From Azospirillum sp. 47_25 (GTDB lineage: Bacteria > Pseudomonadota > Alphaproteobacteria > RF32 > CAG-239): 64,000 nt of DNA. The stretch covers positions 1-64,000 of the forward strand of contig MNTU01000016.1 of assembly GCA_001917125.1 (NCBI GenBank), read 5' to 3'. A program made the translations under genes and the position numbers. Of the stretch, positions 16,557 to 53,707 are shown one piece after another (the first letter of the stretch is position 1; each line of letters begins with the position of its first letter). The notes beneath the pieces were generated by a model. The model did not search any database, was not told the origin of the DNA, and saw only the letters and a list, made by a program, of their open reading frames with translations.

Positions 16557-16664
16557 TAAAAGTTTGGAGAATGTGTCGAATAACAGTCATCAAAAGTACC
16601 GCAGCGTACACAGAAGTAGGTAAGGACACTTTTAACCCACAGAGAAAGCCCTGGATTTCAAACT
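16557..16664 (-). repeat. Palindromic 3'-end element A (after acyP)
   Basis: Core GTACACAGAAGTAGG at 16606-16620 lies between inner arms AAAAGT (16592-16597) and ACTTTT. The outer arm AAAAGTTTG at 16558-16566 mirrors the end of acyP (gene-sense AAAAGAGTTTG, which includes the final codons and part of the stop). This copy is more degenerate than the others in the family. Confidence 0.6.
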
Positions 16665-16948
16665 CTTTTGAATACACCTGCCACAATCGGCGGCAAAAAT
16701 CCCGACCGCCGCCCGACAATAAAATTCACGCTGTCCACACGAGCCAGCGGCGGTCCTGCATGGCAGGCCAAAATCATCCGGTCAATATTATCTTCTTCGC
16801 CGCTCATCAGAATTTCAACCGACCCGTCTGCCGCATTATGAACCCAGCCGGAAATGCCGCCGATTTCCTCTGCCGTTTTAACTGCCCACCAGCGAAAACC
16901 GATTCCTTGCACCCGACCTTTGATTTTCAGATAGACTTCCTTTTCCAT
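16658..16948 (-). CDS. acyP: Acylphosphatase
   Basis: This small enzyme hydrolyses carboxyl-phosphate bonds of acyl phosphates. The 96 residues match the family length. The signature G-R-V-Q-G-I-G-F-R at residues about 11-19 contains the catalytic Arg (Arg19 by position), and GWVHNAADGSVEI near residue 34 contains the catalytic Asn. ATG at 16948 overlaps the upstream stop as TGATG; a GTG one codon earlier is less likely. It is the last gene of rluC-asmA-ATP12-acyP, and its final codons form one arm of palindromic element A. Confidence 0.92.
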   Translation of the reverse strand: MEKEVYLKIKGRVQGIGFRWWAVKTAEEIGGISGWVHNAADGSVEILMSGEEDNIDRMILACHAGPPLARVDSVNFIVGRRSGFLPPIVAGVFKRV

Positions 16949-17448
16949 CACTCGGCCAAAAACTTCTCGACGTCAATCAGTTCCTGCCGGATGACTTCCC
17001 GTCTCTGATCTGCTTCGGCATCATGTCCCCATTTGTCGGCCTGCCAGATTTCTTCCAGAAAAGCAGCGCGAAAAGCCTCATCGGCCGTAATCTGCTTTTT
17101 GACCAGCGCCGCGGCCAGCAAAACCGACTTTGTAATTTTTCCGGTCTGATAAAAAGCCGCCAGTTCTTTATCGGAAAGCTTTTCTAAAAAAACCTGCAAA
17201 CGAGGCAGCGATGCATTATTTTCCATCGGAACTTCCAAACTCTCGCTGGTCTTAAAATCGGCGTCCATGTTTTTTTTCGCCCACTCGACAATCGGATCCC
17301 AAACCTGACGTTCTTCGGCGATCAGGTCTTCTGCATCAGGATTGCGGAACAACAAAGTATCCGTCAGGGAAAAATTAACCATCCGCTCAATAATTTCGTC
17401 GCGATGCTGAGCCACATCCTTTGCCATCGCTTTCAAGTCTGCTGTCAT
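16948..17448 (-). CDS. ATP12-family F1-ATPase assembly chaperone, short form
   Basis: ATP12 proteins help assemble the alpha subunit of F1-ATP synthase. The 166 residues match the C-terminal part of the family: TDTLLFR near residue 29, then WDPIVEWA near 51, the hydrophobic T-x-S-x-x-L-A-A-A-L stretch near 108, and W-Q-x-x-x-W-G-x-D-A-E-A near 136. The first 80-90 residues found in ordinary ATP12 are absent, and there is no room for them because asmA ends only 12 nt upstream. The rluC-ATP12 neighbourhood is typical of Alphaproteobacteria and supports the call. Confidence 0.78.
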   Translation of the reverse strand: MTADLKAMAKDVAQHRDEIIERMVNFSLTDTLLFRNPDAEDLIAEERQVWDPIVEWAKKNMDADFKTSESLEVPMENNASLPRLQVFLEKLSDKELAAFYQTGKITKSVLLAAALVKKQITADEAFRAAFLEEIWQADKWGHDAEADQRREVIRQELIDVEKFLAE

Positions 17449-17460
17449 TGTGTCCTTATC

Positions 17461-19599
17461 CTAAAATGATTTAAACAAGTCTTTAACTCCGTCGCGAATT
17501 CCCCGGACGCTCTTTTCAATCGCCTTTCCGGTATCCTTAACGGCATTTTTGGTACCGCTGACCACATCATTGGTCACGGTTGAGGTTTTGCTCGGCGCCT
17601 TAAACCGGGTCGAATAAGGCGTCCCCTGCAAAGCCGTCCAGCAAGGCGCCGAATTCGATTCCGAAACCAGCTGCGCTCCCAGAAAAGCCGGCCCCGTCGT
17701 CGCAACACCGACAATCGTTTGCAGCGCCTGCTTTTCATCAAGGGCAATTTTCGGATTTTCCAATGTTCCGCCCACCTTGATAAATGAAGATAATGCCTGA
17801 GCAACATTGGCATCTTTAATGCTCAGGGTCGGCGTTACCGTAAAATCGATTTTGTCGCTGACCAAATTAAGCGCACCATTGCTCACCAACGTAATCTGAT
17901 TGGACTGAACGGCAATACTCTGCGGAAAATTAGCCTTGCCGTTGGCAAAATCGGCTCGAACTACTGCACAGGCAAGATTGATTTCCGGATTTTTGACGAC
18001 ATTAAGATTGATCATGTTCAAAATCTGGGTCAGAACATTGCCGGTCATAAATTTCAGCGCACCGGTTTTAATAACCGATTTGTCAACAATTGCCACCAGC
18101 TGGCCGTTCAAATGCTGAACCAGCTGCCGATAGGTTGCACCTCCGGTTGTCAAATCTGCCGAAACCAAAGTCTGTCCGCCGGATTCGATACCAAAGTCCC
18201 CTTTTCCTTCAATCTGAAATTCCTTGTGCATGTTTTGCAGCAGAATATTCTTACTGTTCAGCTTCAAAGCCACTGTCTGAGCCGGAGCATTAACCGTCAG
18301 CGACGCATCGATATCTCCTCCGCCGAAATCCAGCTTCAGAGGATTAACCGTCAAAACACCGTTGTTCAGTTTGGCTGTCAGCACCACATTTTCAGCCGTC
18401 ATCGCCGGATTGATAATCAACTGTTTAACCCGAACCGCGGCATTGGCATTCACACTGTTTAAAGCACTGTAAGGAACCGGCGTGTTCGGCACCAGCTGCG
18501 AAGCCTGCGCTTCGCCGATAATGCCGGGAAAATTCCATGCCAGCGGCTGAGCCCGGTTCAAACTGGTTAAGTCAAAGCGGTCACTGCTCAAATTGGCATT
18601 AATCAACGGTTTTTTGCCGTTTAAATCGGCAGTTACCGTTCCGGTTATCAGATTGTTGGCAACATTCAGGGTCGAAATATCCGCTTTCACCTTTTTAATG
18701 TCACCGCTTATTTTGGCTGCCAGCGTTGTCTCCGGAGCGTCGAAATTTCCGGCCGGATTATAAATATTGGCATTAAAATCGAAAACAGGATTCTTCATCA
18801 TATCGGCAACGGTTCCGTCCGCATTGACGTTTACCCCGTAGGCACCGGCCGTCAGCTTAACCGGAAAAGGCTCGGCGGCTGCCAAAAACTGATTAATGGA
18901 TCCCAAAACGGTATTCCCTTTTATCGGCTGATTGTCATACAGCAAATCAAAATCTGCCGTTATCGGAGCATCCATCCCATCGGCGGAAAAATTAAAGCTG
19001 TTAATCTGCAAATTAACCGTCTGCTTGGCCTTCTGGTCGGAAAAACGGACCAAACCATTTTCAATCGAAACGTTTTTTGCGGCAAAACCGGCCAACACCG
19101 CCGCTGCGGGACCGGCTTTTTCCGCCGTTTTAACCCGTTCTGCCGCCTGAGGAAGCTCCGCTTCGGCAGCCTTTACCGCAGCTGTCTCGCCGTCTGCCGG
19201 TTTGCTGAACTCCCAGTTTGCCTGCCCGGCGGCATTCTGTTCCAGATAAATTTCCGGCGCCACCAGGTTGATGTTGTTAATCATAATTTCTTTGTGCAGC
19301 AGCGGCAAAACAGCAAAGCTGATTTCCAGTTGTTTGACTTTCAGCATTTGCGGCTGAGACGCCCAAGAAGCATTAGACAGCGAAACATCATTCAAAACCA
19401 AAGTCGGCACCAGCGAAATTCCCAAATCGGCCTCGCCATTCAGAGCCAGTTTCCGTCCGGTTTCTTTATAAACCAAATCTTCGGCATAGCTTTTATATTT
19501 ATTAAGGTCAAAATTCTTGATAAAATAATAGCCGCCGCCGACAAGTGCGACAATTAAAACCAAAAACAAAATACCGATAAACTTAAAAAACTTTTTCAT
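17461..19599 (-). CDS. AsmA-family envelope protein
   Basis: This 712-residue AsmA-like protein has one N-terminal membrane anchor (residues 5-28) and a long periplasmic part. The AsmA N-terminal pattern is clear (YKETGRKLALNGEADLGISLVPTLVLNDVSLSNA, residues about 44-78), and a C-terminal AsmA domain (about 400-640) is rich in beta strands. AsmA-like proteins take part in phospholipid transport or outer-membrane biogenesis. An Ala-rich linker lies near residues 135-170. A good SD (AAGGGG) lies in the 6-nt gap after rluC, so it is co-translated with it. Confidence 0.88.
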   Translation of the reverse strand: MKKFFKFIGILFLVLIVALVGGGYYFIKNFDLNKYKSYAEDLVYKETGRKLALNGEADLGISLVPTLVLNDVSLSNASWASQPQMLKVKQLEISFAVLPLLHKEIMINNINLVAPEIYLEQNAAGQANWEFSKPADGETAAVKAAEAELPQAAERVKTAEKAGPAAAVLAGFAAKNVSIENGLVRFSDQKAKQTVNLQINSFNFSADGMDAPITADFDLLYDNQPIKGNTVLGSINQFLAAAEPFPVKLTAGAYGVNVNADGTVADMMKNPVFDFNANIYNPAGNFDAPETTLAAKISGDIKKVKADISTLNVANNLITGTVTADLNGKKPLINANLSSDRFDLTSLNRAQPLAWNFPGIIGEAQASQLVPNTPVPYSALNSVNANAAVRVKQLIINPAMTAENVVLTAKLNNGVLTVNPLKLDFGGGDIDASLTVNAPAQTVALKLNSKNILLQNMHKEFQIEGKGDFGIESGGQTLVSADLTTGGATYRQLVQHLNGQLVAIVDKSVIKTGALKFMTGNVLTQILNMINLNVVKNPEINLACAVVRADFANGKANFPQSIAVQSNQITLVSNGALNLVSDKIDFTVTPTLSIKDANVAQALSSFIKVGGTLENPKIALDEKQALQTIVGVATTGPAFLGAQLVSESNSAPCWTALQGTPYSTRFKAPSKTSTVTNDVVSGTKNAVKDTGKAIEKSVRGIRDGVKDLFKSF

Positions 19600-21529: not shown

Positions 21530-21632
21530 TAGGCGAGGAAAATAATAAGATTTCAGAGAGACAACACCGCAGCGTACACAGAAGTACGTGAGGCTGTTGG
21601 CTGCTCGCAAAATCTGTATTAGTTTTCCGCCT
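21530..21632 (-). repeat. Palindromic 3'-end element B (after rarA)
   Basis: The distal arm on the plus strand, AGGCGAGGAAAATAATAAGA continuing TTTCAG, aligns with the gene-sense end of rarA (AGGCGGAAAACTAATACAGA continuing TTTTGC). The inverted copy therefore includes the last four codons and stop of rarA. The inner stem is CAACA / TGTTG and the core is GTACACAGAAGTACGTGAGG. There is no T-tract, so it is not an ordinary terminator. Confidence 0.75.
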
Positions 21633-34389: not shown

Positions 34390-34518
34390 TTCTAAAAATA
34401 ATTTGGAGAATGAGGCAAATAATAAGAAATAAAAGTGGAAGTACCGGAGCATACACTTTAGTACGTGAGGACACTTCCGCCCTGATATTTCTGTATTAGT
34501 TACCCTTTATACAAATTA
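34390..34518 (-). repeat. Palindromic 3'-end element C (after carD)
   Basis: The distal arm AAAAATAATTTG (34394-34405) repeats, in inverted orientation, the carD end (gene sense CAAAATAATTTG, which includes the stop TAA). Further inward, AAATAATAAGAAAT mirrors ACTAATACAGAAAT, then the inner stem GGAAGT / ACTTCC and core ATACACTTTAGTACGTGAGG. The whole inverted repeat spans about 125 nt and is followed by a separate T-tract terminator. Confidence 0.78.
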
Positions 34519-36133: not shown

Positions 36134-36290
36134 TCATATACGAGGTAAATAATAAGATTGAAGGGAAAAAGAACTTTTGGGATTTTCTTATATGAGAGGA
36201 GTAATAAGATTTTAGAGAGGAGAAAGCGGAGTGTACACCTTAGTACACGAGCATTTCCCCACTCGCAAAATCTGTATTAATCCTCCATAG
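36134..36290 (-). repeat. Palindromic 3'-end element D (after trmL), with duplicated distal arm
   Basis: The near arm runs from the last codons of trmL (gene-sense CTATGGAGGATTAATACAGA then TTTTGCGAG). The distal arm at 36190-36216 (TATGAGAGGAGTAATAAGAT then TTTAGAG) copies it inverted. A second, older-looking distal arm, CATATACGAGGTAAATAATA then AGATTG, lies at 36135-36160. Inner stem GAAA / TTTC; core GTGTACACCTTAGTACACGA. Confidence 0.75.
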
Positions 36291-37530: not shown

Positions 37531-37750
37531 ACTTTTAAACGTTGATTTCAATAAAGGCTTATGCTGCGAAGTAACTTCTGAACAACGTGTACATCCAGCT
37601 ACACGAATAAAAATTACAAGTATGGCAAGCTTTTAAACGTTGATTTTGATAAAGGCTTGTGCTGCGAAGTAACTTTTGAACGACGTGTACATCCAGCTAC
37701 ACGAGTGAAAAAATTACAAGCATGACAAGCCTTTAGCAAAATCAAACATT
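37531..37750 (-). repeat. Palindromic 3'-end element E (after ychF), tandem duplicated
   Basis: Two direct copies of a roughly 99-nt unit (about 37532-37629 and 37631-37730) share about 85-90 per cent of positions. Each has core CGTGTACATCCAGCTACACG with an inner stem GTAACTTTT / AAAAAATTAC. The copy next to ychF has outer arms AAAGGCTTGT / ACAAGCCTTT extended by GTTGATTTTG / CAAAATCAAAC, which reaches the ychF stop codon (gene sense GTT TGA). This is the most diverged core of the family. Confidence 0.75.
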
Positions 37751-38851: not shown

Positions 38852-38858
38852 AATAAAA

Positions 38859-41806: not shown

Positions 41807-41822
41807 TTTCTCTCCCTATTTG

Positions 41823-41952
41823 AAAAAACGGTTTTAGAGACATAAATAAGGCGATTTCTAACGGCAAGAAAAATTTCAGCGCACAAGAAGTACGTAAATT
41901 TTGAGTCCGCGTAAAATCGCCTTAGATAGTCTATAAAACTATTTTCTGAGGA
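41823..41952 (-). repeat. Palindromic 3'-end element F (after rplY)
   Basis: A nearly continuous inverted repeat: GAAAAAACGGTTTTAGAGAC (41822-41841) matches gene-sense AGAAAATAGTTTTATAGAC, which contains the last codons and stop TAG of rplY. Further inward TAAGGCGATTT pairs perfectly with AAATCGCCTTA, then AAAATTT / AAATTTT around core GCACAAGAAGTACG. The distal arm reaches the SD region of pth. Confidence 0.78.
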
Positions 41953-42229
41953 AATCGACGTGCAACGGCATATCGCTTACCGGATGAAACTGAACATCCT
42001 GGCAAACAACCTTATGTTTTTTGCCGTCAACATTGATTTCGATATCGGCGTCATAGAAACCGACCATGTCCAAAGCTTTTTCCAGCTGAACCGGATCCAA
42101 GCTGATCATCAGGGCTTCTTTGTTACCGCCATAAATAACCGCGGGAACGCGGCCTTCACGACGACATGCACGAGCTGCCCCCTTACCTGCTTTTTCACGC
42201 AGTTTTGCGTCAAAAGTAATATCTGCCAT
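41939..42229 (-). CDS. rplY: 50S ribosomal protein bL25, short form
   Basis: bL25 binds 5S rRNA. The 96-residue product begins MADITFDAKLREKAGKGAAR; the start at 42229 has SD AAGGAA, and 19 upstream codons without SD were dropped. REGRVPAVIYGG near residue 23, ALDMVGFYDADIEINVDGKKHKV near 50 and the ending HPVSDMPLHVDFLR match the family. The C-terminal TL5/CTC domain found in longer alphaproteobacterial homologues is missing, so this is the short, E. coli-like form. The final codons are mirrored in element F. Confidence 0.93.
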   Translation of the reverse strand: MADITFDAKLREKAGKGAARACRREGRVPAVIYGGNKEALMISLDPVQLEKALDMVGFYDADIEINVDGKKHKVVCQDVQFHPVSDMPLHVDFLRK

Positions 42230-42340
42230 CTTTGTATTCCTTAAATAAATTAAACAAATCCCCGTGCACCTCCAGGGGTGTTGCACAGGTAAGAATGCTT
42301 TTACAACTTTATTTCAGATATTTCAAGCGCTTTTTTAAAA

Positions 42341-42369
42341 ACCGAAGAGGGGAGAAAACCTCCCCTCTT
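42341..42369. terminator. Intrinsic terminator
   Basis: The stem AAGAGGGGAG / CTCCCCTCTT has a 5-nt loop, with TTTT on the plus side and a TTCGGTTTTT run on the minus side. It ends the small membrane-protein group (43865 to 42371). Confidence 0.8.
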
Positions 42370-42370
42370 T

Positions 42371-42673
42371 TCAGGCGCGCAAAGAATAAAACTCCCGATC
42401 TCCTTCCGGCTTCCCCACGACGACCGCAGGAAGCGACACGCCGGAGCGGCCTTGTCCTTCACTCAAATTAACAAAAACGCCGTGGCACAAAACGCTGCCG
42501 TTATAAAACGTGGCATGCCAGCCGGTCGCTTCGGAAAAATAATCCAGTTTGGCCGTAACTTCCTGCTCTTCGGGCCTTTGCCCGGCAGAAACGGAAACGT
42601 CGTTTTTAACATTTTTCCAATACACCAAAGCAATCAATGCGGCAATAACCGCAAGCATAATAATCATTTCCAT
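42371..42673 (-). CDS. Small membrane-anchored protein, unknown
   Basis: The 100-residue product has one N-terminal membrane helix (residues 3-19) and a soluble 80-residue domain with several glycines and predicted strands (TGWHATFYNGSVLCHGVFVNL). No family is recognised. It lies 26 nt after the next membrane-protein gene and shares its transcript. Expected to sit in the inner membrane. Confidence 0.5.
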   Translation of the reverse strand: MEMIIMLAVIAALIALVYWKNVKNDVSVSAGQRPEEQEVTAKLDYFSEATGWHATFYNGSVLCHGVFVNLSEGQGRSGVSLPAVVVGKPEGDREFYSLRA

Positions 42674-42699
42674 AACTATGTTTTTTGAAGATTAACAAA

Positions 42700-43212
42700 C
42701 TAAGCCAGCCCCAGATTTCTCAGCTTTCGGCTGACCAGAAACTTTTCCTTTTCTCCCCAGTCCATTTTTTCCAAAAGCTCTACTTCCACCCGGGCGGACC
42801 AAAACGAATACCGAACAACCCGGCACCAGTAATATTCGCCTTCCTGCGGATAATGGCTCAGCATCTGCACCGCAATAACCGGAATGTTGCTGACATGTGT
42901 CACCATCATCCCTCTGACAATACCGTCGCCTTTCTGCAGCAAAAGACAAGGATAACGGAGCCCGCTTTTTGCCCGCCGCCACAAACGGATATCTATCCAG
43001 AATTTATAGACTGCCGCCGCGGCAAAACAGAACAACCCCGGCCAAGCCGACAACTGCTGCGAATAGAGCATAACAACAACCCACAATCCGAATAGCATAA
43101 TCTGCATCTGAATATCCTGCAGGCGGGACATTGCTTTAAAGGCCCAAAGCTTGTTCGCATATCTCACCATAAAAAAAGCCAGCAAGACATACATTAAAAC
43201 AACAAGTTTCAT
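42700..43212 (-). CDS. Membrane protein with C-terminal soluble domain, unknown
   Basis: The 170-residue product has an N-terminal helix (residues 3-17) and two more near 37-52 and 57-72, then a soluble region of about 95 residues with GDGIVRGMMVTHVSNIPVIAV and a basic end. Layout and length resemble the next gene upstream (43341-43865), suggesting a diverged pair, but primary-sequence similarity is weak. Function unknown. Confidence 0.5.
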   Translation of the reverse strand: MKLVVLMYVLLAFFMVRYANKLWAFKAMSRLQDIQMQIMLFGLWVVVMLYSQQLSAWPGLFCFAAAAVYKFWIDIRLWRRAKSGLRYPCLLLQKGDGIVRGMMVTHVSNIPVIAVQMLSHYPQEGEYYWCRVVRYSFWSARVEVELLEKMDWGEKEKFLVSRKLRNLGLA

Positions 43213-43303
43213 AGTTTATAGTTTTTAAGATTAATAATTCAGAAAATAAATGATTTTGCCGTTATTATAAACATTAGAAACGCATTGTCAATTAAACAAG
43301 CAA

Positions 43304-43334
43304 AAACCTCCGCCGCAGACGGGGAGGTTCTTGC
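43304..43334 (-). terminator. Intrinsic terminator
   Basis: The stem AACCTCC / GGAGGTT is followed on the minus strand by TTTG, just beyond the 43341-43865 gene. It is weak, so partial readthrough to the next membrane-protein gene is plausible. Confidence 0.55.
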
Positions 43335-43340
43335 AAAATG

Positions 43341-43865
43341 TCAGCCGTAAGGAACGACAATTATCGTACTTTCCGTCAGGCCGAAAAAATCGAACGGATC
43401 ATAAGAACAATAACTGACCGCCACCGACAACGTATCTCCGATTTTGTAACGGTCTTTGTTTTTCACATCCAACTCCGCCGACAGCGGTCTGCGGCTGACC
43501 GCCGTGTCAAATTCGCCAAACAGCCGGGTCGGACGATAGCTCTTGTCCGTAATTTTAAATGTATAAACGCCGCCTTCCAGGGCCCTGACAAACTGCTGAC
43601 GCAAAACGATTATCGAAAAGCACGAAAAAACAACGCTTGCCCCGCCTGTAATCAGCCAGAGATATTTATCGGGCCGTTCCGACAATAATTCAAAAACCGA
43701 CAGCACTCCGATAAAGGCTTCAAACATCAGCGTCAGCATCACATAAAATGCCCAAAGACGCTGTTTGGCAATACTCATCACCGAAATTCGGAATTCGGCA
43801 TACAAAAAGTTCGCAAAATTGAGGAAAATCATTGTTCCTCCAATCCATAACCAATAATCTTTCAT
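43341..43865 (-). CDS. Membrane protein, unknown
   Basis: The 174-residue product has three hydrophobic segments (near residues 6-22, 41-60 and 70-88) and a C-terminal soluble domain with predicted strands (VYTFKITDKSYRPTRLFGEFDTAVSRRPL, SVAVSYCSYDPFDFFG). No family is recognised. With the two genes downstream it forms a small group between pnp and rplY. SD is poor. Confidence 0.5.
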   Translation of the reverse strand: MKDYWLWIGGTMIFLNFANFLYAEFRISVMSIAKQRLWAFYVMLTLMFEAFIGVLSVFELLSERPDKYLWLITGGASVVFSCFSIIVLRQQFVRALEGGVYTFKITDKSYRPTRLFGEFDTAVSRRPLSAELDVKNKDRYKIGDTLSVAVSYCSYDPFDFFGLTESTIIVVPYG

Positions 43866-43933
43866 AAAAATAAATTTAAACAGTAATTAAAATTTACTCT
43901 TTTTATAATCCCGGACCTTTCTGACGTCAAATA

Positions 43934-43963
43934 AAAAAAGGTTTGGAAATCCAAACCTTTTTT
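43934..43963. terminator. Intrinsic terminator after pnp
   Basis: A perfect 13-bp stem AAAAAAGGTTTGG / CCAAACCTTTTTT with an AAAT loop and T-runs on both strands ends the rpsO-pnp transcript. Confidence 0.9.
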
Positions 43964-43981
43964 ATTTTCGTTAGCAGCCGG

Positions 43982-46102
43982 TTATTTCTCCAGGTCTTCG
44001 CCGGTTTCCTGATTAACTCTCTTGGCCGAGAGTTTAATCTTGCCCCGGTTATCCTGGCCGATGCATTTAACCCACATGGTATCGCCTTCTTTATAGAAGT
44101 CGGAAACCGAAGCGATTCGTTCATTTTTGACTTCGGAAATGTGGACCAGACCCTCAGTCGTTCCCAAGAAACGAACAAATGCGCCGAAATCCATAATTTT
44201 GGTAATGACACCTTTATAGATTTTGCCTTCTTCCGGTTCGGCCACAATGCCCATAATCCATTCCAAAGCGGCATCGCCGTCTTCTTTTTTCAAAGTGGCA
44301 ATGCGGATAATGCCGTCATCGGAAATATCGATTTTGGAATTGGTTTTCTCGGTAATTTCACGAATAACCTTACCGCCGGAACCGATAACTTCACGGATTT
44401 TATCAACCGGAATTTTAATCGCGATAATTCGCGGAGCCTTGTCGGAAACATGCGGACGCGGCGCCTCAATTGCTTTAGCCATTTCACCCAGAATATGGAT
44501 ACGGCCTTCATGAGCCTGAGCCAAAGCCTTTTCCATAATTTCTTTGGTAATGGAAGTGATTTTAATATCCATCTGCAAAGCGGTAACGCCGTCTCTAGTA
44601 CCGGCAACCTTAAAGTCCATGTCGCCCAGATGGTCTTCATCACCGAGAATATCGGTCAGAATGGCAACCCGGCCGTCATCTTCCTTGATCAGCCCCATGG
44701 CAATACCGGCAACCGGTTTGGCCATCGGTACGCCGGCGGCCATTAACGACATGGTCGTTCCGCAAACGGTAGCCATTGAAGACGAACCGTTCGATTCCAT
44801 AATTTCCGAAACTACGCGAATAGTATAAGGGAAACTGTCCTTGTCTTTCGGCAGCATCGGATGAACCGCACGCCAGGCCAATTTTCCGTGACCGATTTCA
44901 CGACGTCCCGGGCTGCCGATACGGCCGCACTCGCCGACGGAAAACGGCGGGAAGTTATAGTTCAGCATAAAGTCTTCTTTATACTCGTCCATCAAACCGT
45001 CAACAATCTGCGCATCTTCGCCGGTTCCCAATGTGGTAACCACCAGAGCCTGGGTTTCGCCGCGGGTGAAAATAGCCGAACCGTGTGCCATCGGCAAAAC
45101 GTCAACTTCGCACTGAATCGGGCGTACGGTTTTGGTATCGCGGCCGTCAATACGGTGTCCGGTCGTCAAAACGCTTTCGCGCATAACATGATGCATCAGC
45201 TTTTCAATCGCATCTTGAGCATAACGCTGTTCAAACTCGTTTTCCGGATCCAAAGTCGCTTTGAATTTTTCCGAAGCGGCAGCAATCAAATCACCGCGTT
45301 TCAGCTTGTCGGTCTCTTTGAAAGCGGCTTCAAACTCTGCGGTATAACCGTCGGCCAGCTTTTTGTAAAGCTCGTCAAATTCCGGCGGAAAGACCGGAGC
45401 TTCCCAAGCTTCTTTACCGGCTTCGGCTTTCAACTCTTCAATCAGTTTAATAACCGGCTGAAAGTTTTCAAAACCGAACATAACGGCACCGAGCATCGTC
45501 TCTTCGGAAAGTTCCTGCGCCTCGGACTCAACCATCAGCACGCCTTCCTTGGTACCGGCCACAACCAGTTCCAAATCAGACTCTTTAATCTGGGAAACCG
45601 TCGGGTTCAAAATATAATTTCCGTCTTTGTAACCGACTTTGGCAGAAGCAATCGGCCCCAAAAACGGAATGCCGGAAATGCTCAAAGCGGCAGAAGCGGC
45701 AATCATCGCCGGAATGTCTGAATCGGTGTTTTGGTCATGCGACAAAACCGTGCAGATAACCTGAACTTCATTTTTGAAAGCATCGGGAAACAGCGGACGG
45801 ATCGGACGGTCAATCAAACGGGAAAGCAAAACTTCGCGCTCGCTGGGTTTGCCTTCGCGTTTCATAAAACCGCCGGGAACTTTACCCGTTGCATAGTATT
45901 TTTCCTGATAATTGACAGTCAAAGGAAAGAAATCCTGATCAGCCTTTGCCTCTTTTGCTGCACATACCGTTGCAATTACTTCTGTTTCGCCATAGGTAAC
46001 CACAACCGCGCCCTGCGCCTGGCGTGCTAACTTACCCGTTTCCAATACCAACTTGCGTCCGCCCCATTCCATTTCCTTGCGGACAACTTTAAAATCGATC
46101 AT
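43982..46102 (-). CDS. pnp: Polyribonucleotide nucleotidyltransferase (PNPase)
   Basis: PNPase degrades RNA phosphorolytically from the 3' end and is part of RNA turnover. The 706 residues hold two RNase PH domains ([20 protein letters not shown] at the start; [38 protein letters not shown] near 317), then a KH domain ([15 protein letters not shown] near 558) and a C-terminal S1 domain ([18 protein letters not shown] near 622). The start at ATG 46102 has SD AAAGGAAAG; 12 upstream codons lack SD. Its leader contains several strong hairpins typical of autoregulated pnp. Confidence 0.97.
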
Positions 46103-46146
46103 AAAATCTTTCCTTTCATATTCTCTTACAATCATCAACCGGCGCA

Positions 46147-46222
46147 GGCCCTCCCGCTCCGGCCACCTGCCCGAAAGCAGGATTTTTTTACAAAGAATGC
46201 GGAACGCACCCGCCCCGCATTC
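46147..46222 (-). promoter_or_regulatory. pnp leader hairpins
   Basis: Reading minus: GAATGCGG / CCGCATTC (46195-46222), CCTGC / GCAGG around CTTTCGG (46166-46181) and GGCC / GGCC (46147-46164) are stacked within 75 nt between rpsO and pnp. In known bacteria an RNase III-processed double-stranded leader mediates PNPase autocontrol, and these hairpins could serve that purpose here. The A/T-run after the second hairpin also gives partial terminator character. Confidence 0.55.
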
Positions 46223-46287
46223 AAAAATTTTCTCAAACCATAAAACGAATTACTTTAAGGTTTGATTTAGGCTGAACACCTAAACCC

Positions 46288-46418
46288 CCGAAGATTGATT
46301 TTAGGGGAGTAGATAAAGTGAAAAACAGAGACGAAAAAATTTTAATGTACATAAAAGTACATGAATTTTTTCGTACTCGCATTTTTTGCTTTAGATACCG
46401 CATAAAATCAATCTTATT
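46288..46418 (-). repeat. Palindromic 3'-end element G (after rpsO)
   Basis: The outer arms AGATTGATTTTA / TAAAATCAATCT are perfect over 12 bp and the near arm begins right at the rpsO stop. Further in, TAGATAAAGTGAAAAACAGA mirrors gene-sense TATCTAAAGCAAAAAATGCGA, and the inner stem CGAAAAAATT / AATTTTTTCG surrounds core ATGTACATAAAAGTACATGA. Confidence 0.78.
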
Positions 46419-46683
46419 TACGGAGGTCGAGCTTCTTAATCAGATCCTGATACCGACTTTCGCTTTTTGATTTCAGGTGATCCAACAGGTGACGACGACG
46501 GCTGACCATCTTCATCAAGCCCAAACGGGAGTGCAGATCTTTCTGATGCGTATTGAAGTGCTCAATCAGAGAGTTGATTCTGTAGGTCCAGATGGCAATC
46601 TGAACTTCCGGAGAACCGGTGTCACCCGGGGTCTGGCCGAATTCTTTAATTAATTCCTGTTTTTTTTCATTTGTAATCGACAT
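46414..46683 (-). CDS. rpsO: 30S ribosomal protein uS15
   Basis: uS15 binds 16S rRNA early in small-subunit assembly. The 89 residues are standard: [34 protein letters not shown] near 18, LTxHxxxHxKD-type [17 protein letters not shown] near 32 and [17 protein letters not shown] near 50. It lies between truB and pnp, the usual operon order. Downstream it runs into element G and the pnp leader. Confidence 0.98.
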
Positions 46684-46704
46684 CTATTTTTCCTTTTCGT
46701 TTAT

Positions 46705-47613
46705 TCACAAATTAAAAACCCGAAGCGGGGAAATTCTTTTTTCCTCGATTCGCACGATTGCAATCAAACTGCCGTTGCAAAACGCCGCCGCCTCCCGGCC
46801 GATGAGCTTATCAATGTCATAAGCCCGGGGCGAAACGCCTTGTCCTTTTTTCAGCTTGTCTGCATCAACTTCCGAAACAGCAATCTCCGCGATGTCGCGC
46901 AGGGATGTTTCTAACGGAAGCAAAATTTCTTTTAGGGCATCACTATGCACTATATTTTTTATATTTTCCAGTAAAATTTTTGACTCAAGGCCAAATTGAC
47001 CGCATTTTGTCCGCCGCAGCTCCTGCAAAAAGCCGCAGGTTCCCAGTTTTTCAGCCAAATCGCGACCCAGACTGCGCACATAAGTTCCTTTCGAACATTC
47101 CACCCGGAATCTGGCCTGTCCTTCCGGCAGTTCCTCCAGCAGCTCCAGGGCATAAACTTCCACCGTCCGCTCGGGAATGCTGACTTCTTCGCCGCTGCGC
47201 GCCAAAGCATAAGCCCGCCGGCCGTTGATTTTAATGGCCGAATAAGCCGGCGGCACCTGATTGATCTGCCCCACAAACTGCGGGATAACCGCCAAAATTT
47301 CTTCCCGGTCGGGAATTTTATCCGATTCGCTGACAATTTTTCCTTCGGAATCTCCCGTATCGGTCGCTTTTCCCCACTGCACGACAAATTCATATTCTTT
47401 GCGGCCGTCCGTCACATAAGGCAGCAGCTTGGTTGCCTCACCGAAAGCAATCGGCAGAATTCCGGTGGCAAACGGATCCAATGTGCCCGCATGTCCGTTC
47501 TTTTTGGCATTAAACAGCCGCCGGGTCAGGTTCACCACTTGGGTTGACCCGATGTCCCGCGGTTTATCGACTATCAGCCAGCCGTTAATGTCTTCGCCTT
47601 TTTTTCGTCTCAT
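46705..47613 (-). CDS. truB: tRNA pseudouridine(55) synthase TruB
   Basis: TruB makes Psi55 in the T-loop of tRNAs. The 302 residues have DKPRDIGST near residue 16, GHAGTLDPFATGILPIAFGEATKL near 35 (catalytic Asp in TLDP), YEFVVQWGKATDTGDSEG near 68 and RFRVECSKGTYVRSLGRDL near 168. The rpsO start is 21 nt downstream. Upstream is a spacer and the 47694-48698 gene, ending in its own terminator. Confidence 0.96.
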   Translation of the reverse strand: MRRKKGEDINGWLIVDKPRDIGSTQVVNLTRRLFNAKKNGHAGTLDPFATGILPIAFGEATKLLPYVTDGRKEYEFVVQWGKATDTGDSEGKIVSESDKIPDREEILAVIPQFVGQINQVPPAYSAIKINGRRAYALARSGEEVSIPERTVEVYALELLEELPEGQARFRVECSKGTYVRSLGRDLAEKLGTCGFLQELRRTKCGQFGLESKILLENIKNIVHSDALKEILLPLETSLRDIAEIAVSEVDADKLKKGQGVSPRAYDIDKLIGREAAAFCNGSLIAIVRIEEKRISPLRVFNL

Positions 47614-47666
47614 CTTCTTTTCCTTTTATTACTTTCTTAACGGATATCTCTGCCTCTGGCAACAAA

Positions 47667-47692
47667 AAAAGCGCTTCCTGAGAAGCGCTTTT
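47667..47692. terminator. Intrinsic terminator
   Basis: The stem AAAAGCGCTTC / GAAGCGCTTTT with a CTGA loop lies directly after the 47694-48698 gene, with a T run on the minus strand. Confidence 0.88.
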
Positions 47693-47693
47693 A

Positions 47694-48698
47694 TCATTCG
47701 ATTAACTGCAATTTAGCTCCTATCACCATCGGTTGACAAACAACTTTATGCACTTTGTTGCCATAGTGGACATAAAGACAGTCTTTCCCATCAAACTGCC
47801 CCATTTCAACCTCATCGGCATCCTGCTTATAAAACACGTCCTTAGCCAGCACCTGATAAATGCCCTGTGTTTCTCCTTCAAAAATCCTGCGCGTCCGGGC
47901 AATAACCTTAACGCCGAAACTTTCACCGCAACTGCCGAATAACGGCAGTAAGACCACATCAAAGAAAGGATCCTTGCCCTCCCACAGAGCATCAGCAAAT
48001 TTTTCTTCAAAATCCGCAATCCAGCCAAAACCGGACTTGCTGCTTTGAAATGTCTCCACAAAATGATGATAGTCCGCCCAAGAAGCCATCGGCTTCTCAC
48101 TCATAACGACCTTTTGCTCAACGCCGTATTCCGGAGCTTTCATCCCCGGACAATGGCACCATTTTCTTCGCGAAAAGATATTGAGAAAACGCCAAACACC
48201 TTCAATTTTAAATTTGGCAATATCAGCTTGCAGACAGGGAATGCTTTTCCCTTCAGTCTTCTGATAATCGCTGCACCTGACTTGACACAGCCGGTTTTCC
48301 TCAAAATAGCTGAGCAAATAAAGCCCGTTCCATGTTTTGCCTTCGAAAAGTTTACGGACAAATACCGTTTTTTTCTGATCAACGGATTCGCCCAGAAAAT
48401 GGAGCTGAAAATCTTCATCCCACAGCTGCCACATCATATTCTGCAAAAACAGAATTTTCTTACCGAGCCGGACATAATCGTCACAGCCTATTTTTGAACA
48501 AAGGCATCTGTTTTGCTTATCATAGCGGCATAAACAGAAAAATTTCTCATTGTAGCCGAGCACGAAAAAATCTTCCTTTTGCTCCACAATCTTATCGGCA
48601 GCAATAACCGTTCTCATCTCAAAATCAGGCGGGCATATCTGTCTCAAAACCAGTCTGCTTCCGACCTGACGCAGTTCAAAATCTTTCAATACATCCAT
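47694..48698 (-). CDS. Hypothetical protein
   Basis: The 334-residue soluble protein is unrecognised. It is rich in aromatic residues and cysteines (about twelve Cys, several in C-x-C spacing such as FCLCRYDKQNRCLCSKIGC near residue 53) and has many beta-like segments. It may be a multi-stranded or propeller-like fold, but that is inference. The start at ATG 48698 was chosen because upstream codons run into the promoter region of the divergent gene; no SD is clear. It ends in its own terminator. Confidence 0.55.
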   Translation of the reverse strand: MDVLKDFELRQVGSRLVLRQICPPDFEMRTVIAADKIVEQKEDFFVLGYNEKFFCLCRYDKQNRCLCSKIGCDDYVRLGKKILFLQNMMWQLWDEDFQLHFLGESVDQKKTVFVRKLFEGKTWNGLYLLSYFEENRLCQVRCSDYQKTEGKSIPCLQADIAKFKIEGVWRFLNIFSRRKWCHCPGMKAPEYGVEQKVVMSEKPMASWADYHHFVETFQSSKSGFGWIADFEEKFADALWEGKDPFFDVVLLPLFGSCGESFGVKVIARTRRIFEGETQGIYQVLAKDVFYKQDADEVEMGQFDGKDCLYVHYGNKVHKVVCQPMVIGAKLQLIE

Positions 48699-48781
48699 AA
48701 TTATCAAATATTTATAATAAAAACTATCGTCCCGATTATATACAAACTTATGTTTTTGGCAAGCCCTGTTCGACAAACATT

Positions 48782-48810
48782 TTGACAAAACACGCAATTA
48801 GTGCTATTTT
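48782..48810 (+). promoter_or_regulatory. Near-consensus sigma-70 promoter for the amidotransferase gene
   Basis: TTGACA (48782-48787), a 17-nt spacer and TATTTT (48805-48810) lie just before the gene at 48830. The leader would be only about 12 nt for the ATG at 48830, or about 33 nt for the ATG at 48851. Confidence 0.65.
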
Positions 48811-48829
48811 GAATGAAATTGCTATTTTT

Positions 48830-49753
48830 ATGAACCTAAAAAACAAACAAATGCAAACAAAACAAACTGTCTCGCTGCAATTCCTTCCGGAATACAATGC
48901 CTACGGCATCAGCGACAAAGAAGTAAAAAAATTGACAGACCGGAATATAATTCCGATTCTGGAGTTGAGTAACGAAGCACTGCAGGAACTGGCACCCGAT
49001 ACGGAAGTCCGCAAAGGAGAACCCGTGGTTGCATTCCTGATGGGACGGGAAAAAGGGCACTATACGGTTGATATGCCTTATCTGAAAGCAATGGCTCAGT
49101 CCGGAGCAAGCTTAAGATTTCTCACTTATAATGAGAATCTTGACCAGATGGACGGCATCAACGGTTTAATTCTGCCCGGCGGAGCTTTCGATTCGCCGAA
49201 CGAATTTTACACCGATCCGCTGAAACCGAACGGCAGCCGCCCGGGTACGCGCTCGCACGCTTACATCTCCTCAATCATGAAAGCCGAAAAAAACGGTCTG
49301 CCGATTTTGGGAATCTGCGCCGGCGCCCAGCTTTTGGGAAGCATGCACGGCATGCGTATGTATCGCAGCGTTAAGGAATACACCCAAACGCCGCTGGAAC
49401 ATAAAACCAAAGAACTGGCCGCGCACGATGTATTTGTTGCACCGTTTACGCCTCTGGCCGACATTATCGGCGAAGGACATATTCTGACCAATTCCCGCCA
49501 CCGGGAAGCAATGATGCCGAATGATACGATTTCCGATATGAAAATCTATGCAACGGCCTCGGACGGAACTCCCGAAGCTTGGGGAAACGCAGAAAAACAC
49601 CTGCTCTGCATTCAATGGCACCCCGAAGATTTTGCCGCCATCGGTGATAAACGGATGCAAAAAATCTATGACTGGATAGCCGAAGAAGCTTCCCGTCATC
49701 AGCAAAAATTATTTGAACAAATCTGTCTGCAACATAAGCAAAAAAGCTTGTAA
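48830..49753 (+). CDS. Class I glutamine amidotransferase-like (gamma-Glu-GABA hydrolase type)
   Basis: The 307-residue product has the triad of class I amidotransferases: the nucleophile Cys in GICAGAQLLG near residue 167, and the His/Glu pair in QWHPEDF near residue 262. GLILPGGAFDSPNEFY near residue 114 matches PuuD-like hydrolases. The N-terminal 50 residues are an extra, charged segment with no signal peptide. A TTG 48 nt upstream is part of the -35 promoter element and was rejected as a start; neither ATG (48830 or 48851) has a strong SD. The substrate is unknown. Confidence 0.8.
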   Translation: MNLKNKQMQTKQTVSLQFLPEYNAYGISDKEVKKLTDRNIIPILELSNEALQELAPDTEVRKGEPVVAFLMGREKGHYTVDMPYLKAMAQSGASLRFLTYNENLDQMDGINGLILPGGAFDSPNEFYTDPLKPNGSRPGTRSHAYISSIMKAEKNGLPILGICAGAQLLGSMHGMRMYRSVKEYTQTPLEHKTKELAAHDVFVAPFTPLADIIGEGHILTNSRHREAMMPNDTISDMKIYATASDGTPEAWGNAEKHLLCIQWHPEDFAAIGDKRMQKIYDWIAEEASRHQQKLFEQICLQHKQKSL

Positions 49754-49770
49754 AAGCAAACAGACGTATA

Positions 49771-49798
49771 AAAGAGCCTCCTTTCGGAGGCTTTTTTT
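49771..49798. terminator. Bidirectional terminator
   Basis: The stem GCCTCC TTTC GGAGGC is followed by seven T on the plus strand and preceded by AAAAGA. It serves the amidotransferase gene (plus) and rbfA (minus), whose stop codon it touches. Confidence 0.88.
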
Positions 49799-50186
49799 AT
49801 TCTTCATCGGGCTGCTGCAAATCATGAGCCACTTTAGGATCCCGCAGCAGCTTTTCGATCTTATCAACTTCCTCAAAAGTCTTATCAACTTTAAAGACCA
49901 GCTCCGGAGCGTAACGCAGCTGCATCTTTTCGGCAATTTGCTTGCGCAGATAGTTGGCCGCCAGCTGCAAACCGCCGACAACTTCCTGTAAATGAGCATT
50001 GTTCAGCGTCATCAGATAAACCGACGCATATTTCAAATCAGGAGACACCGTCACTTCGGTAATCGTCACAATCGTGTCAATTCCCTCCAGATTACGAATT
50101 TCCCCTTTTTGAATAAATCCGGCCAAAATCCGTTTGATTTCCTGCCCGACCCGCAGCTGTCTCTGCGATTGTTCTTTTACTGCCAT
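49797..50186 (-). CDS. rbfA: 30S ribosome-binding factor RbfA
   Basis: RbfA is a cold-shock-related factor for 16S maturation. The 129-residue KH-type protein has QRQLRVGQEIKRILAGFIQ near residue 7, ITITEVTVSPDLKYASVYL near 42 and LRYAPELVFKVDKTFEE near 92. It follows infB across a 290-nt spacer that contains two palindromic elements, so it may be separated from the infB transcript. Confidence 0.95.
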   Translation of the reverse strand: MAVKEQSQRQLRVGQEIKRILAGFIQKGEIRNLEGIDTIVTITEVTVSPDLKYASVYLMTLNNAHLQEVVGGLQLAANYLRKQIAEKMQLRYAPELVFKVDKTFEEVDKIEKLLRDPKVAHDLQQPDEE

Positions 50187-50261
50187 TTTCTTATTCCTTA
50201 TCCTAACTTGATATTCCTGACCTCAACCTGAAAATATGCCCGGCCGGGAAAACTAATTCTT

Positions 50262-50370
50262 AATTTTTGCCCCTGCTCTCACCGACGGTTCTGAGAAAGG
50301 AACATGCGGCACCGTTGCTTTTGAACGACATGCATATTCAACAAAATAACCGGCATAATGCCCCTCACTT
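50262..50370 (-). repeat. Degenerate 3'-end palindrome near element H
   Basis: The stretch GTTGCTTTTGAACGACATGC (about 50314-50333) with flank CAACAAAATAAC resembles the core and inner stem of element E (GTAACTTTTGAACGACGTGT). This looks like a decayed second copy placed in tandem with element H, as at ychF. Confidence 0.45.
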
Positions 50371-50492
50371 AAAATGTTGCAGGCTGGGAAAATAAAGGCG
50401 GAAGTACCGAAACATACACAAACGTACGGAAGGACACTTCCGTCCTGCAATTTCCCTGCCAGTTCCCGGTCAGAAACATTTACAGTTTGGCG
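50371..50492 (-). repeat. Palindromic 3'-end element H (after infB)
   Basis: The distal part ACTTAAAATGTT (50367-50378) resembles gene-sense ACTGTAAATGTTT at the infB stop, and GGCTGGGAAAA mirrors GGCAGGGAAAT. The inner stem GGAAGT / ACTTCC surrounds core ATACACAAACGTACGGAAGG. A short insertion interrupts the near arm. Confidence 0.7.
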
Positions 50493-52945
50493 GCAATAGC
50501 CTCTATCTCATAACATTCAATAAAGTCACCGACCTGAATGTCATTATAGTTTTCAAAGCTCATACCGCATTCATAGCCTTCTTTAACTTCCTTGACGTCT
50601 TCTTTGAAACGTTTGAGTTGGCCGAGATTGCCGTCATGGATAACGACGTTGTCACGCAGCAGGCGGACTTTTGCACCGCGTTTGACCAGCCCTTCGGTAA
50701 CCATACAGCCGGCAACTTTGCCCACCCCGGTAATATTAAAGACATTGCGGATTTCGGCATAACCGAGAATCTTCTCTTTGAGTTCGGGCGACAGCATGCC
50801 TTCCAAACCTTTCTTCACGTCATCGGCCACATCGTAGATAATTGAATAATAACGAATATCAACACCGTCGCGACGGGCCATATCCCGCGCCTGCGGAATG
50901 GCACGAACGTTAAACCCGATAACAAAAGCGTTTGAAGCTTTCGCCAGTGTAATGTCGGATTCGGAAATCGGACCGACCGCCGAGTGCAGAATTTGAACAC
51001 TGACTTCATCATTCGACAACTTGTTCAACGTTCCTTCAATTGCCTCAATCGACCCTTGAACGTCAGCTTTGATAATAACCGGCAAGTGTTTGATTTCGCC
51101 GGATTTAATTTTATCCAGCATCTGTTCCATCGCTGACTTGGCGCTTTTTACCAGTTTGGCGTCACGTTCTTTGCGGATACGATAATTGGTTACTTCACGA
51201 GCCTGATTTTCATCAGCAACAACCGTAAAATCGTCACCGGCCGCAGGTGTTCCCTGCAAACCGAGAACTTCTACCGGAGTTGCCGGACCGGCTTCCTGAA
51301 CTTTGTGCCCCATTTCATTAAACATGGCACGAACACGTCCCCATTCTTTGCCGGCAATACAAATGTCGCCGACCTTGAGCGTTCCGCGCTGAACCAAAAC
51401 CGTTGCCACCGAACCGCGACCTTTTTCCATTTTGGCTTCAATGACCGTACCGTCAGCCGTCCGGTTCGGATTCGCTTTCAAATCCAGAATCTCAGCCTGC
51501 AGCAAAATAGCTTCCAACAACTTATCGATATTGATGCGCTTCTTTGCCGAAACTTCCGCACAAAGCGATTCGCCGCCCAGTTCTTCCACCGCAATGCCGT
51601 GCTGCAGCAAAGCAGTCTTAACTTTCATCGGGTCGGCGCCCGGCAGGTCAATTTTGTTAATCGCCACGACAATCGGCACTTCCGCCGCCTGAGCATGGCG
51701 GATAGCTTCAATTGTCTGCGGCATAATGCCATCATTGGCAGCCACGACCAAAACCACAATATCGGTCACTTTGGCACCGCGCGCGCGCATTTCCGAAAAG
51801 GCCTCGTGACCCGGCGTATCAATAAAGGTAATCTTGTCACCTTTCGGCGTCACAATCTGATATGCACCGATATGCTGGGTAATACCGCCGGCTTCGCGTG
51901 CGGCAACGTTTGTCTCGCGCAAGGCATCCAGCAAAGAAGTCTTACCATGGTCAACGTGCCCCATAACCGTAACCACCGGTGCCCGCGGCAGCATCTGATC
52001 CGGCGTATCTTCCGCACCCTTGATAGCTTCTTCAACATCGCTGTCGGCCACGCGCTTAAACTTGTGTCCCAGTTCTTCGACCACGATTTGCGCCGTATCG
52101 GCATCAATCGGCTGGTTAATGGTTGCCATAACCCCCAGAGACATTAGCTTTTTGATAACATCGGCACTCTTCTCGGCCATACGGTTAGCCAACTCCTGAA
52201 CCGTAATAATTTCAGGAATAATAACTTCTTTAATAACCTTTTCCTGCGGCTGAACCGGTTGAACCGGTTTAGGCTGTTTTTTCTTAAAGCGGCGCCGCGG
52301 CCCGCCGAAACCATAATCGTCATCGTCGTCATCACCGCTGCCGATGCTGTGCAGATTAACTTTTCCGCCCCGGCGCTGCGGTTCAAAACTCCGCTTCATA
52401 ACTTTTTTGCGTTCCTGCTCAAATACGTCTTCGCGGCTTTTTTCAAGGTCGGAAGCTTTGCGGAATTTTTTCGAAGAATTTTCCTCTTCATCTTCGTCAT
52501 CATCATAATCTTTTGATTTTTTATCTTTGGTCTTAAAAGATTTTTCCTCGGCTTCGACTACCGGAGCTGTAATCTGGGCCGATTTGATTTCTTTCACCAT
52601 TTCCGCCTTTTTGGCTTCTTCCGCAGCCTGACGCGCCAAACGCTCTTTTTCTTCCTGTTCGCGTTCCTGACGGCGCAGACGTTCTTTCTCCTCTTCTTCC
52701 TGACGGCGGCGAGCCTCATGCTCTTTGGCTTCGGCAATCAGCTTCAGTTTCATAGCCGTTGCTTCGTCAATCTTAACATTGTTTTCGGCCGGCTGCGCAT
52801 TCGGATTAATCACTCTTTTTTTGCGTACTTCCACCTGCACAACTTTTTTGCCTTCGTGCGTATGAGCCTTATCACCCAGATTTTTGAGAGTAAGCGTCGA
52901 TTTTCCCGATAATGTTAATTTGCTCTTTGCATTATCTTCTGTCAT
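50480..52945 (-). CDS. infB: Translation initiation factor IF-2
   Basis: IF-2 delivers fMet-tRNA to the 30S subunit. The 821 residues consist of a lysine/glutamate-rich N-terminal region (1-240, with a long EERxRR helix near 85-120 and an acidic patch), the IF2_N linker near 245, and the G domain with [14 protein letters not shown] near 329, DTPGHEAF near 375 and [10 protein letters not shown] near 430. Domains II, III and the fMet-tRNA-binding IV follow. The start has SD GGAGATGG. It is part of rimP-nusA-ylxR-infB. Its 3' end forms element H. Confidence 0.98.
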
Positions 52946-52982
52946 ATATTTCCATCTCCGTAATTCAATATTCTTCTTCGTC

Positions 52983-53555
52983 TTAAGAATTTAAAAACTT
53001 GTCCAGTCTTTTAAACTCCGTATAAACCATGTCAGACATCCTGTTTTTCAAAAATGCCGCATGGACCGTATTAACCCGATCTAATGCCTTGTCCAACTCC
53101 TCAACATCATACAACGCGAAAACCTCAACCCCTTTGGCCAACGAAAGCATTTTGGCATGCCCGTCAGCCCCGGCGTCTTTAGCCTCGAGAATAAAAGCCG
53201 CTTTGTCCTTACGCAGCGCTTCGCTGACTTTTTCAAAACCGGTTACCAAATCCCCGGCTTTTTTGGCCAGACAAACAGCCTCCAAACCTTTTTTCCTTAA
53301 AATGGCCTCCACCATCGGAATAAGGCCGTCACTTACTTTTACATTCTTTTTAAGCGCTTTGGCAAATAGATTTTTCGCCGCAGCAACCTTTAATGCCGAC
53401 AAAGAACAGGCCACATAAATCCCTTTGCCGGGCAGCCGTTTCCTGAAATCAGGAATAACCTGATTGTCCGGCGTCACGGTAAAACGCAGCAAATCCTTGC
53501 TTTCCATTACCTTTCCGCTGACAATGTCTTTCCGTTCCTTATCTTCTTTAATCAT
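52983..53555 (-). CDS. YlxR (DUF448) plus L7Ae-like RNA-binding protein
   Basis: The 190-residue product joins two domains. Residues about 5-80 are YlxR/DUF448 ([30 protein letters not shown]), an RNA-binding and RNase P-linked domain. Residues about 85-190 resemble the L7Ae/eL8-type fold ([26 protein letters not shown]). Alphaproteobacteria often carry this arrangement between nusA and infB. The start was set at ATG 53555 since the codon at 53561 is TTG. It may regulate ribosome biogenesis. Confidence 0.9.
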
Positions 53556-53579
53556 AAACAAACCTGTTAATTAAAAAAC

Positions 53580-53707
53580 AAAATGGGTTATATGAGCCGG
53601 ATAGTAAGATTTCAGGGTGGGAAAAGCGGAGTGTACACAGAAGTACATGAGCATTTTCCCGACCCGCAAAATCTGTACTAGCCGGCCATAGAACGCGTTT
53701 TATTCAA
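53580..53707 (-). repeat. Palindromic 3'-end element I (after nusA)
   Basis: A very regular member: plus-strand distal arm AAAATGGGTTATATGAGCCG then GATAGTAAGATTT mirrors gene-sense AAAACGCGTTCTATGGCCGG then CTAGTACAGATTTT immediately behind the nusA stop. The inner stem GGGAAAA / TTTTCCC surrounds core GTGTACACAGAAGTACATGA. There is no T-tract, so it is not an ordinary terminator between nusA and ylxR. Confidence 0.8.

Follow-up and report, generated by a model that had tools for sequence, protein, structure and literature searches.

The closest described relative of the repeats analysed here is ERIC (enterobacterial repetitive intergenic consensus, also named IRU or RU-1), a 127-bp sequence that forms a long imperfect hairpin. 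As summarized in PMC2229807, ERIC lies between genes and has TA termini; in Yersinia it is co-transcribed and in one orientation lowers the stability of the upstream mRNA (citing De Gregorio 2005), and the same account describes a Yersinia RNase E site that is exposed through ribosomes. That source also covers the Rickettsia palindromic elements (RPEs), 105-146 bp hairpins that can enter reading frames. The much shorter repetitive extragenic palindromes (REPs) are presented in PMC3733652 as palindromic, mostly located behind genes and thought to act as RNA, and in Escherichia coli their proximity to the stop codon (15 nt or less) reportedly matters for translation (PMC12306157). Here we describe a family of hairpin repeats found behind nine genes in a 64,000-nt stretch of Azospirillum sp. 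47_25 (assembly GCA_001917125.1, contig MNTU01000016.1, positions 1 to 64,000 of the forward strand), referred to below as the window. We consider it fairly probable (roughly 0.6) that they are copies of a non-autonomous repeat of the ERIC kind, ~125 nt long and carried in the 3' ends of mRNAs.

Each of the nine genes named in the initial annotation (acyP, rarA, carD, trmL, ychF, rplY, rpsO, infB, and nusA) does have one element directly behind it, always on the minus strand and thus in gene sense, with a second, tandem copy behind ychF ~98 nt from the first. The hairpins in the window are ~80-125 nt long, and the full design is an imperfect hairpin of ~125 nt that mostly begins at the stop codon. 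What unites them is not the literal core first proposed, since the exact 13-mer GTGTACACTCCGC is confined to the trmL and nusA elements (2 matches at up to 2 mismatches, against 0.59 expected); it is a common tip, TCA-[YGTAC]-N6-[GTACR]-CTSC, around which every outer stem layer varies yet remains complementary. Compared by RNA folding with 200 shuffles each, eight of the nine elements fold significantly (z from -3.8 to -8.5). In the predicted folds, examined in this respect at the eight loci other than acyP, the first paired base lies at +0 to +2 from the start of the stop codon for rarA, carD, trmL, ychF, rplY, and rpsO (six of the nine elements), and at +8 for nusA. At infB the hairpin itself begins at +22, although its arms can, by eye, be drawn out as far as the stop codon.

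A covariance model of 51 positions, built from a seed of 16 elements, was used to follow the family beyond the window. In the window itself it recovers seven copies with scores of 38-72 bits, of which six belong to the seed; the next match there (14.8 bits) is on the opposite strand of the rpsO copy, and the copies at rplY and ychF have diverged too far to be recovered. The model finds matches in 12 of 12 relatives chosen from NusA loci. Within one alphaproteobacterial family, 89 of the 126 genomes have matches at E 0.001, and a single genome has up to 40. A set of 193 model hits includes 131 with a 51-nt core; three of these are cut, and the remaining 128 give 118 distinct elements. The 62 hits of other core length, including a variant with a AGAGGCATTT stem, were left out of this set.

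Aligned first by eye and afterwards by the model, the elements show one layered design. The hexaloop begins with T in 91 of the 118 elements and ends with T in 115; outward from it follow the five pairs YGTAC/GTACR and an internal loop with TCA opposite CTSC, retained in 96 of 118. Beyond this loop stand two pairs, mostly CC/GG or GC/GC, an extra base on the 5' side that is mostly T, a variable stem of 7 bp, three further pairs, and additional layers down to a base that often reads AAA-N3-CG / CG-N3-TTT. The outer internal loop has TAT facing CTC in 56 of 118 elements and the reverse arrangement, CTC facing TAT, in eight. The arms are diverse, with 67 different outer arms on the 5' side and 29 different 7-bp arms, and their complementarity is specific to each element: Watson-Crick cells make up 84.1% over all layers, and exchanging 3' arms among elements lowers this to a mean of 59.0% (maximum 61.4%). 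All seven layers tested lie above their respective arm-swap controls, the 7-bp stem dropping from 88.1 to 51.8% and the outermost stem from 74.4 to 54.3%. The proposal that the stems are locus-specific and complementary, rather than copies of a single conserved sequence, is therefore upheld. In the seed of 16 sequences, standard pairs fill 94.9% of cells, where shuffles reach 77.9% and slid structures 37-61%. Covariation scores 0.597 against 0.252; one of the five seed measures, further pair types, did not rise above shuffles (21 vs 23.5). The seed structure was set by us from the same sequences, so that this second test leans towards the structure.

The plan of these hairpins is that of ERIC. 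Four E. coli regions, fetched with a 44-nt ERIC centre and representing the two loci ybhI-ybhJ and pgk-fbaA, fold into long hairpins (z -4.25 and -3.55), and the copy at ybhI reads, in gene sense, CCCCAG-TCA-CTTAC-TTAT-GTAAG-CTCC-TGGGG within a long imperfect hairpin. Length (~125-127) and the arrangement of tip and internal loop agree, and the tip sequence is very similar. The covariance model scores ERIC weakly (11.7 bits, E 0.15 in 6 kb), the outer stems show no resemblance by eye, and the family differs further in its strict sense placement and tandem arrays. TA near both ends was seen in 7 of 109 family elements and 5 of 116 control windows, and insertion at TA, as for ERIC, was accordingly rejected as a description of the family. 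Because the TA termini of ERIC are not seen here, we call the family ERIC-like and not ERIC itself; ERIC is its closest known family, and in our reading the repeat works like ERIC and may share ancestry with it. The earlier view that ERIC differs in layout is not supported.

Placement along the genome follows genes closely. After grouping, the 193 matches form 123 arrays, and dropping five repeats of the same place leaves 118 arrays holding 187 elements (a set different from the 118 distinct elements above, which happens to share its number). With genes taken as mechanical open reading frames (ORFs), and with the seed sequences of the model included, a sense stop codon lies within 60 nt before the first core in 80 of the 118 arrays for ORFs of at least 130 aa and in 84 for ORFs of at least 80 aa, whereas one and four arrays, respectively, have an antisense stop in the 60 nt behind the last core. 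Stop-to-core distances peak at 13, 24, and 34-40 nt, and at 80 nusA loci all 31 matches are on the nusA strand. The orientation bias and stop-codon position seen in the window thus extend to the family, and copies are not scattered at random. Arrays comprise 72 single, 30 double, and 12 triple units, three of four units, and one of seven. Counted over all 193 hits, not de-duplicated, neighbours no more than 300 bp apart share a strand in 70 cases and lie on opposite strands in none, with tandem spacing peaking at 126-127 bp (25 of 70) and 120 bp (7 of 70). Arrays also mix unit types, and in one (L113) units with the same right arm carry different left arms, which we read as recombination between units.

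Since most elements start on or near a stop codon, and with REP and ERIC as precedents, a role at the end of the message in which the tip is recognised appears likely. A mobile element of the mRNA 3' untranslated region (3' UTR) is the most likely identity of the family, and it is from sequence that we infer its RNA function. We hypothesize that the element would be transcribed as the tail of the upstream gene, that a ribosome terminating at the stop codon would open the base of the stem, and that the hairpin would close after the ribosome leaves. The fixed tip may then serve as the recognition site of a general host factor, such as an RNase, a part of the degradosome, or an RNA-binding protein, while for the stem it would suffice to be double-stranded and to keep its mismatches in defined positions. 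The effect could fall on the 3' boundary of the message, either stopping 3'-to-5' decay or marking a processing site within operons, as might be the case at nusA and rpsO-pnp. The repeat would be mobile and would grow by tandem duplication, selection on pairing maintaining the complementarity of its arms.

Several observations weigh against this reading. Wobble pairs could reveal the strand that folds. Counted as G.U versus A.C in those 81 of the 118 elements whose outer half is Watson-Crick paired to 75% or more, they stand at 25:9, 40:9, or 58:9 (depending on clustering) in the inner half, and this drops to 17:8, 19:8, or 21:8 without two fixed pair columns. The outer half has no G.U excess (23:20, 33:34, 43:38), and in the outermost stem of all 118 elements G.U is rarer than A.C (27:34 and 34:49). 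The wobble test is weak as RNA evidence, and orientation is the stronger hint for RNA. At pgk-fbaA, ERIC carries the tip in antisense. Outside the family, where 57 tip-bearing places correspond to 55 arrays, or 53 once two arrays of the gut family are left out, a sense stop lies within 100 nt before the tip in 28 of 53 arrays and an antisense stop after it in 12-14; this looseness places the strict sense rule with the gut family. Moreover, the element is not essential, since 37 of the 126 family genomes lack a match at E 0.001, and no cognate enzyme or binding protein was identified, the Y1 transposase (PF01797) being the candidate searched.

The alternative that survives best, though we regard it as unlikely, is a purely selfish miniature element of DNA, mobile in the form of folded single strands, whose fold serves mobility and whose position behind stop codons is merely tolerated. 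Such an element would account for a copy number that is patchy among relatives (0 to 40), for near-identical copies at several loci of one genome, for the conservation of all fold layers, for the missing wobble asymmetry in the outer half, and for the loose orientation in the wide set. The 80-84 sense against 1-4 antisense arrays near stop codons would be hard to obtain from DNA insertion alone. In addition, the Y1 transposase, the usual enzyme of folded REP repeats, is found in only 45 of 126 family genomes and 6 of 12 relatives, on which ground a REP system driven by such an enzyme (RAYT) was rejected; PF01797 was not found in genomes rich in the element, namely G016 (37 matches), G030 (40), and G009-G011 (16-22), although these metagenome-assembled genomes (MAGs) may be incomplete.

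An unusually long intrinsic terminator, with an A-run, hairpin, and T-run at gene ends, is a distinctly poorer candidate than a selfish DNA element. Many copies have an AAAA...TTTT base, placement is in sense only and at gene ends, and TTTTT directly follows the carD hairpin, which also means that the claim that none of the elements has a T-tract is not strictly correct. Yet the T residues of the base are mostly paired, neither a stem of such length nor a conserved tip is needed for termination, and copies stand inside operons (nusA, infB, and rpsO before pnp), the hairpins at nusA and rpsO each separating neighbours in a single operon. Ordinary short G+C hairpins with T-runs also occur elsewhere in the window, including one just after the carD element (34349-34380). 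A terminator scan of positions 34000-53999 with loops of 3-8, a stretch outside which acyP and rarA lie, flagged other sites and no full element, and the site at 50443-50426 is an internal piece of the infB copy.

The initial annotation had left two explanations for the complementary stems, selection on the fold or regeneration of the second arm from the first, and the former fits better. Among 30 disjoint pairs of close elements, with 1 to 12 differences each and 172 in total, 67 differences fall in 38 unpaired columns and the rest in 86 paired columns. One-sided changes of a pair number 73 (52 that create or remove a mismatch, 20 that create or remove a G.U pair, and one other), compared with 13 double changes that keep a Watson-Crick pair, 11 of which are double transitions, and three other double changes. 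Stepwise change with later compensation under selection on pairing therefore suits these sequences better than instant copying of one arm, which would give the opposite. Template switching at the palindrome, with pairing as an unselected mutational by-product, might explain the two-sided pair differences between distant elements, among them flips from A-T to T-A, but it is very improbable given the excess of one-sided changes and given that copying would erase fixed mismatches such as TCA against CTSC.

REP/BIME, including GTAG-/CGTC-tagged REPs, are likewise palindromic and mostly behind genes, but their units are 20-40 bp with an unpaired GTAG/CGTC tag and in many families are paired in opposite orientation, in contrast to head-to-tail units of ~125 nt and a 70:0 ratio of same to opposite strands among neighbours. 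RPEs are alphaproteobacterial and similar in hairpin length; they are noted for in-frame insertion inside genes, whereas the window elements are at stop codons, and the two are set apart here by description. The attC sites of integrons belong to gene cassettes and have integrase core sites at the base of the stem and a variable tip. They were considered for the fixed orientation behind stop codons, and the conserved tip of the family is the reverse of that arrangement. Rfam covariance models gave no match at gathering score in the whole window; at E up to 1, four weak matches appeared in 34300-54000 (acyP and rarA lie outside this stretch), none covering an element and one abutting the carD copy. 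In the open-licence literature no paper was found that describes the family or a phylum-wide link to ERIC, and a literature search by the letters of the tip returned none on bacterial repeats by title among the matches listed.

The family had at first appeared to stand alone, and in this respect the picture has changed, as the tip is present in many other genomes of the phylum. The exact tip pattern occurs in 40 of 398 genomes from Pseudomonadota and in 30 of 385 genomes from the class, with up to 143 copies in one genome of the class set (G281); a backwards control pattern gave none among the matches listed for either set. The 57 distinct tip places, viewed with their flanks, are long quasi-palindromes, many with quite different stems. 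The tip is also found in 25 stretches of 24 viral contigs, while a search of a phage collection with one relative gave no match. A plasmid search gave only two weak matches to the nusA element and none to another query (L253). Two further queries, the whole elements L214 and L233 that carry the tip, had matches in plasmids of Sphingobium, Shinella, Phyllobacterium, Agrobacterium, Mesorhizobium, Bosea, and others. These repeats of Rhizobiales and Sphingomonadales differ from the window family in their G+C-rich stems. In 7 of 35 records inspected, five of the six annotated places are 5-28 nt behind a sense stop and one is antisense, the seventh record being unannotated. RIME and Bru-RS are candidate names for these repeats.

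Another branch of relatives lies in Enterobacterales. Nearly all E. coli genomes (5375 of 5426) contain a match to L246, a query taken from this branch; the median is five places, and in 1750 genomes 80% or more of the query is covered. In E. coli Nissle 1917 (L290:1201-1311), the exact tip pattern CTCACGTAC-TTAA-GTACGCTCCG stands between the pheM leader and pheS in a long hairpin (z -4.8), which differs from the window family in having another stem and in being antisense to transcription. Two names were tried for this E. coli element and rejected: the RU-3 sequence as printed in Table 1b of PMC2759123 lacks the tip, and BoxC is described in PMC4666352 as a G/C-rich triplex motif. We tentatively entertain an ancient superfamily of ~125-nt hairpin repeats across Pseudomonadota, with ERIC as its enterobacterial branch, in which stems would turn over completely while the tip UCA-YGUAC-loop-GUACR-CUSC would be kept by a conserved host RNA-handling protein, and which in gut alphaproteobacteria might have become a stop-codon-anchored 3'-UTR module put to repeated use on housekeeping genes. 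In the accounts consulted, the intergenic repeats of bacteria are described as separate families in each bacterial group, and a phylum-wide tip would connect several of these, perhaps with ERIC among them. A tip of this kind points to one host factor, for which a 25-nt hairpin could serve as bait in E. coli. The alphaproteobacterial branch, with many stems, a fixed tip, and an anchor at the stop codon, amounts to a natural experiment in which an ERIC-type effect on mRNA ends would be directly testable.

Within the window, the element behind acyP (16555..16660, TGA stop at 16658-16660) is decayed: its outer arms no longer pair (z -0.1 and +0.4), while the tip and 7-bp stem are kept at 16588-16638, and it scores 58.0 bits as a seed member. 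The seed also includes the elements behind rarA (21543..21621; 67.0 bits, z -4.1), carD (34399..34518; 64.2 bits, z -3.8), trmL (36202..36279; 52.3 bits, z -6.2), infB (50370..50482, outer ends set by eye; 58.0 bits, z -4.2), and nusA (53587..53702, before the next gene of the operon; 71.9 bits, z -8.1). The rarA hairpin starts with the TAA stop itself (21619-21621), the carD stop codon is paired with the 3' end of its hairpin, and the trmL stop codon (36277-36279) lies inside the element; the first pair is at +0 in all three. The element behind rpsO and before pnp (46291..46416) was not in the seed and is matched at 38.4 bits (E 1.2e-7), with z -7.2 and its first pair at +1. Two loci escape the model. 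At ychF, the first copy (37641..37744; z -8.5, first pair +0) has the variant tip TCG-TGTAG-CTGGAT-GTACA-CGTC, and the second extends over 37540..37640, with ends approximate and set by eye and its tip at 37583-37607, downstream of the first tip. At rplY, the element (41831..41941; z -6.5, first pair +2) is a variant with a AAGGCGATTT/AAATCGCCTT outer stem.

The genes themselves were identified by best NCBIfam match. L25, S15, IF-2, and NusA each exceed at least one curated cut-off, while acylphosphatase, a RarA-type AAA ATPase, and TrmL are all below theirs. The carD product has a weak match to Mfd, as expected of CarD, and the ychF label, outside this matching, was taken over from the initial annotation. 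With the stop codons of rarA and trmL inside the element, the last codons of both genes can form part of the 5' arm; at a locus in another record (L120, near 2023-2073), an ORF enters the left arm and terminates at a TAG within it.

The NusA loci (the best 80 of 219, with identity up to 94%) come by their titles mostly from MAGs of uncultured Alphaproteobacteria, proteobacterium, Azospirillum, and Rhodospirillales, including Azospirillum sp. CAG:239, and several of them from rumen, cecum, colon, or feces; going by these titles, the host group is probably gut-associated. One record (L066) is labelled Lactobacillaceae; this title is probably wrong, as the NusA of the record and that of the window share 81% identity. 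In relatives that lack the element, another, simple hairpin often stands directly behind nusA (seen by eye and uncounted, L001-L080), and a hairpin at this junction seems to be common though its sequence is not conserved. Several arrays are located at contig ends (G012:C31, G011:C76, and other contig starts), so the copy numbers of these MAGs are probably underestimates. Other kinds of hairpin, in which an identical or similar tip is combined with different stems, occur beside or among model hits (L144:2000-2157 and L178 near 1400), including TCGTGTAC...GTACACGTTG units that resemble the ychF copies, and the family is therefore larger than the model sees. Lastly, in one relative (L031) the first unit behind infB carries, near its tip, an insertion of ~110 nt, estimated by eye, and in another (L032) the unit is without this insertion and agrees in the rest.

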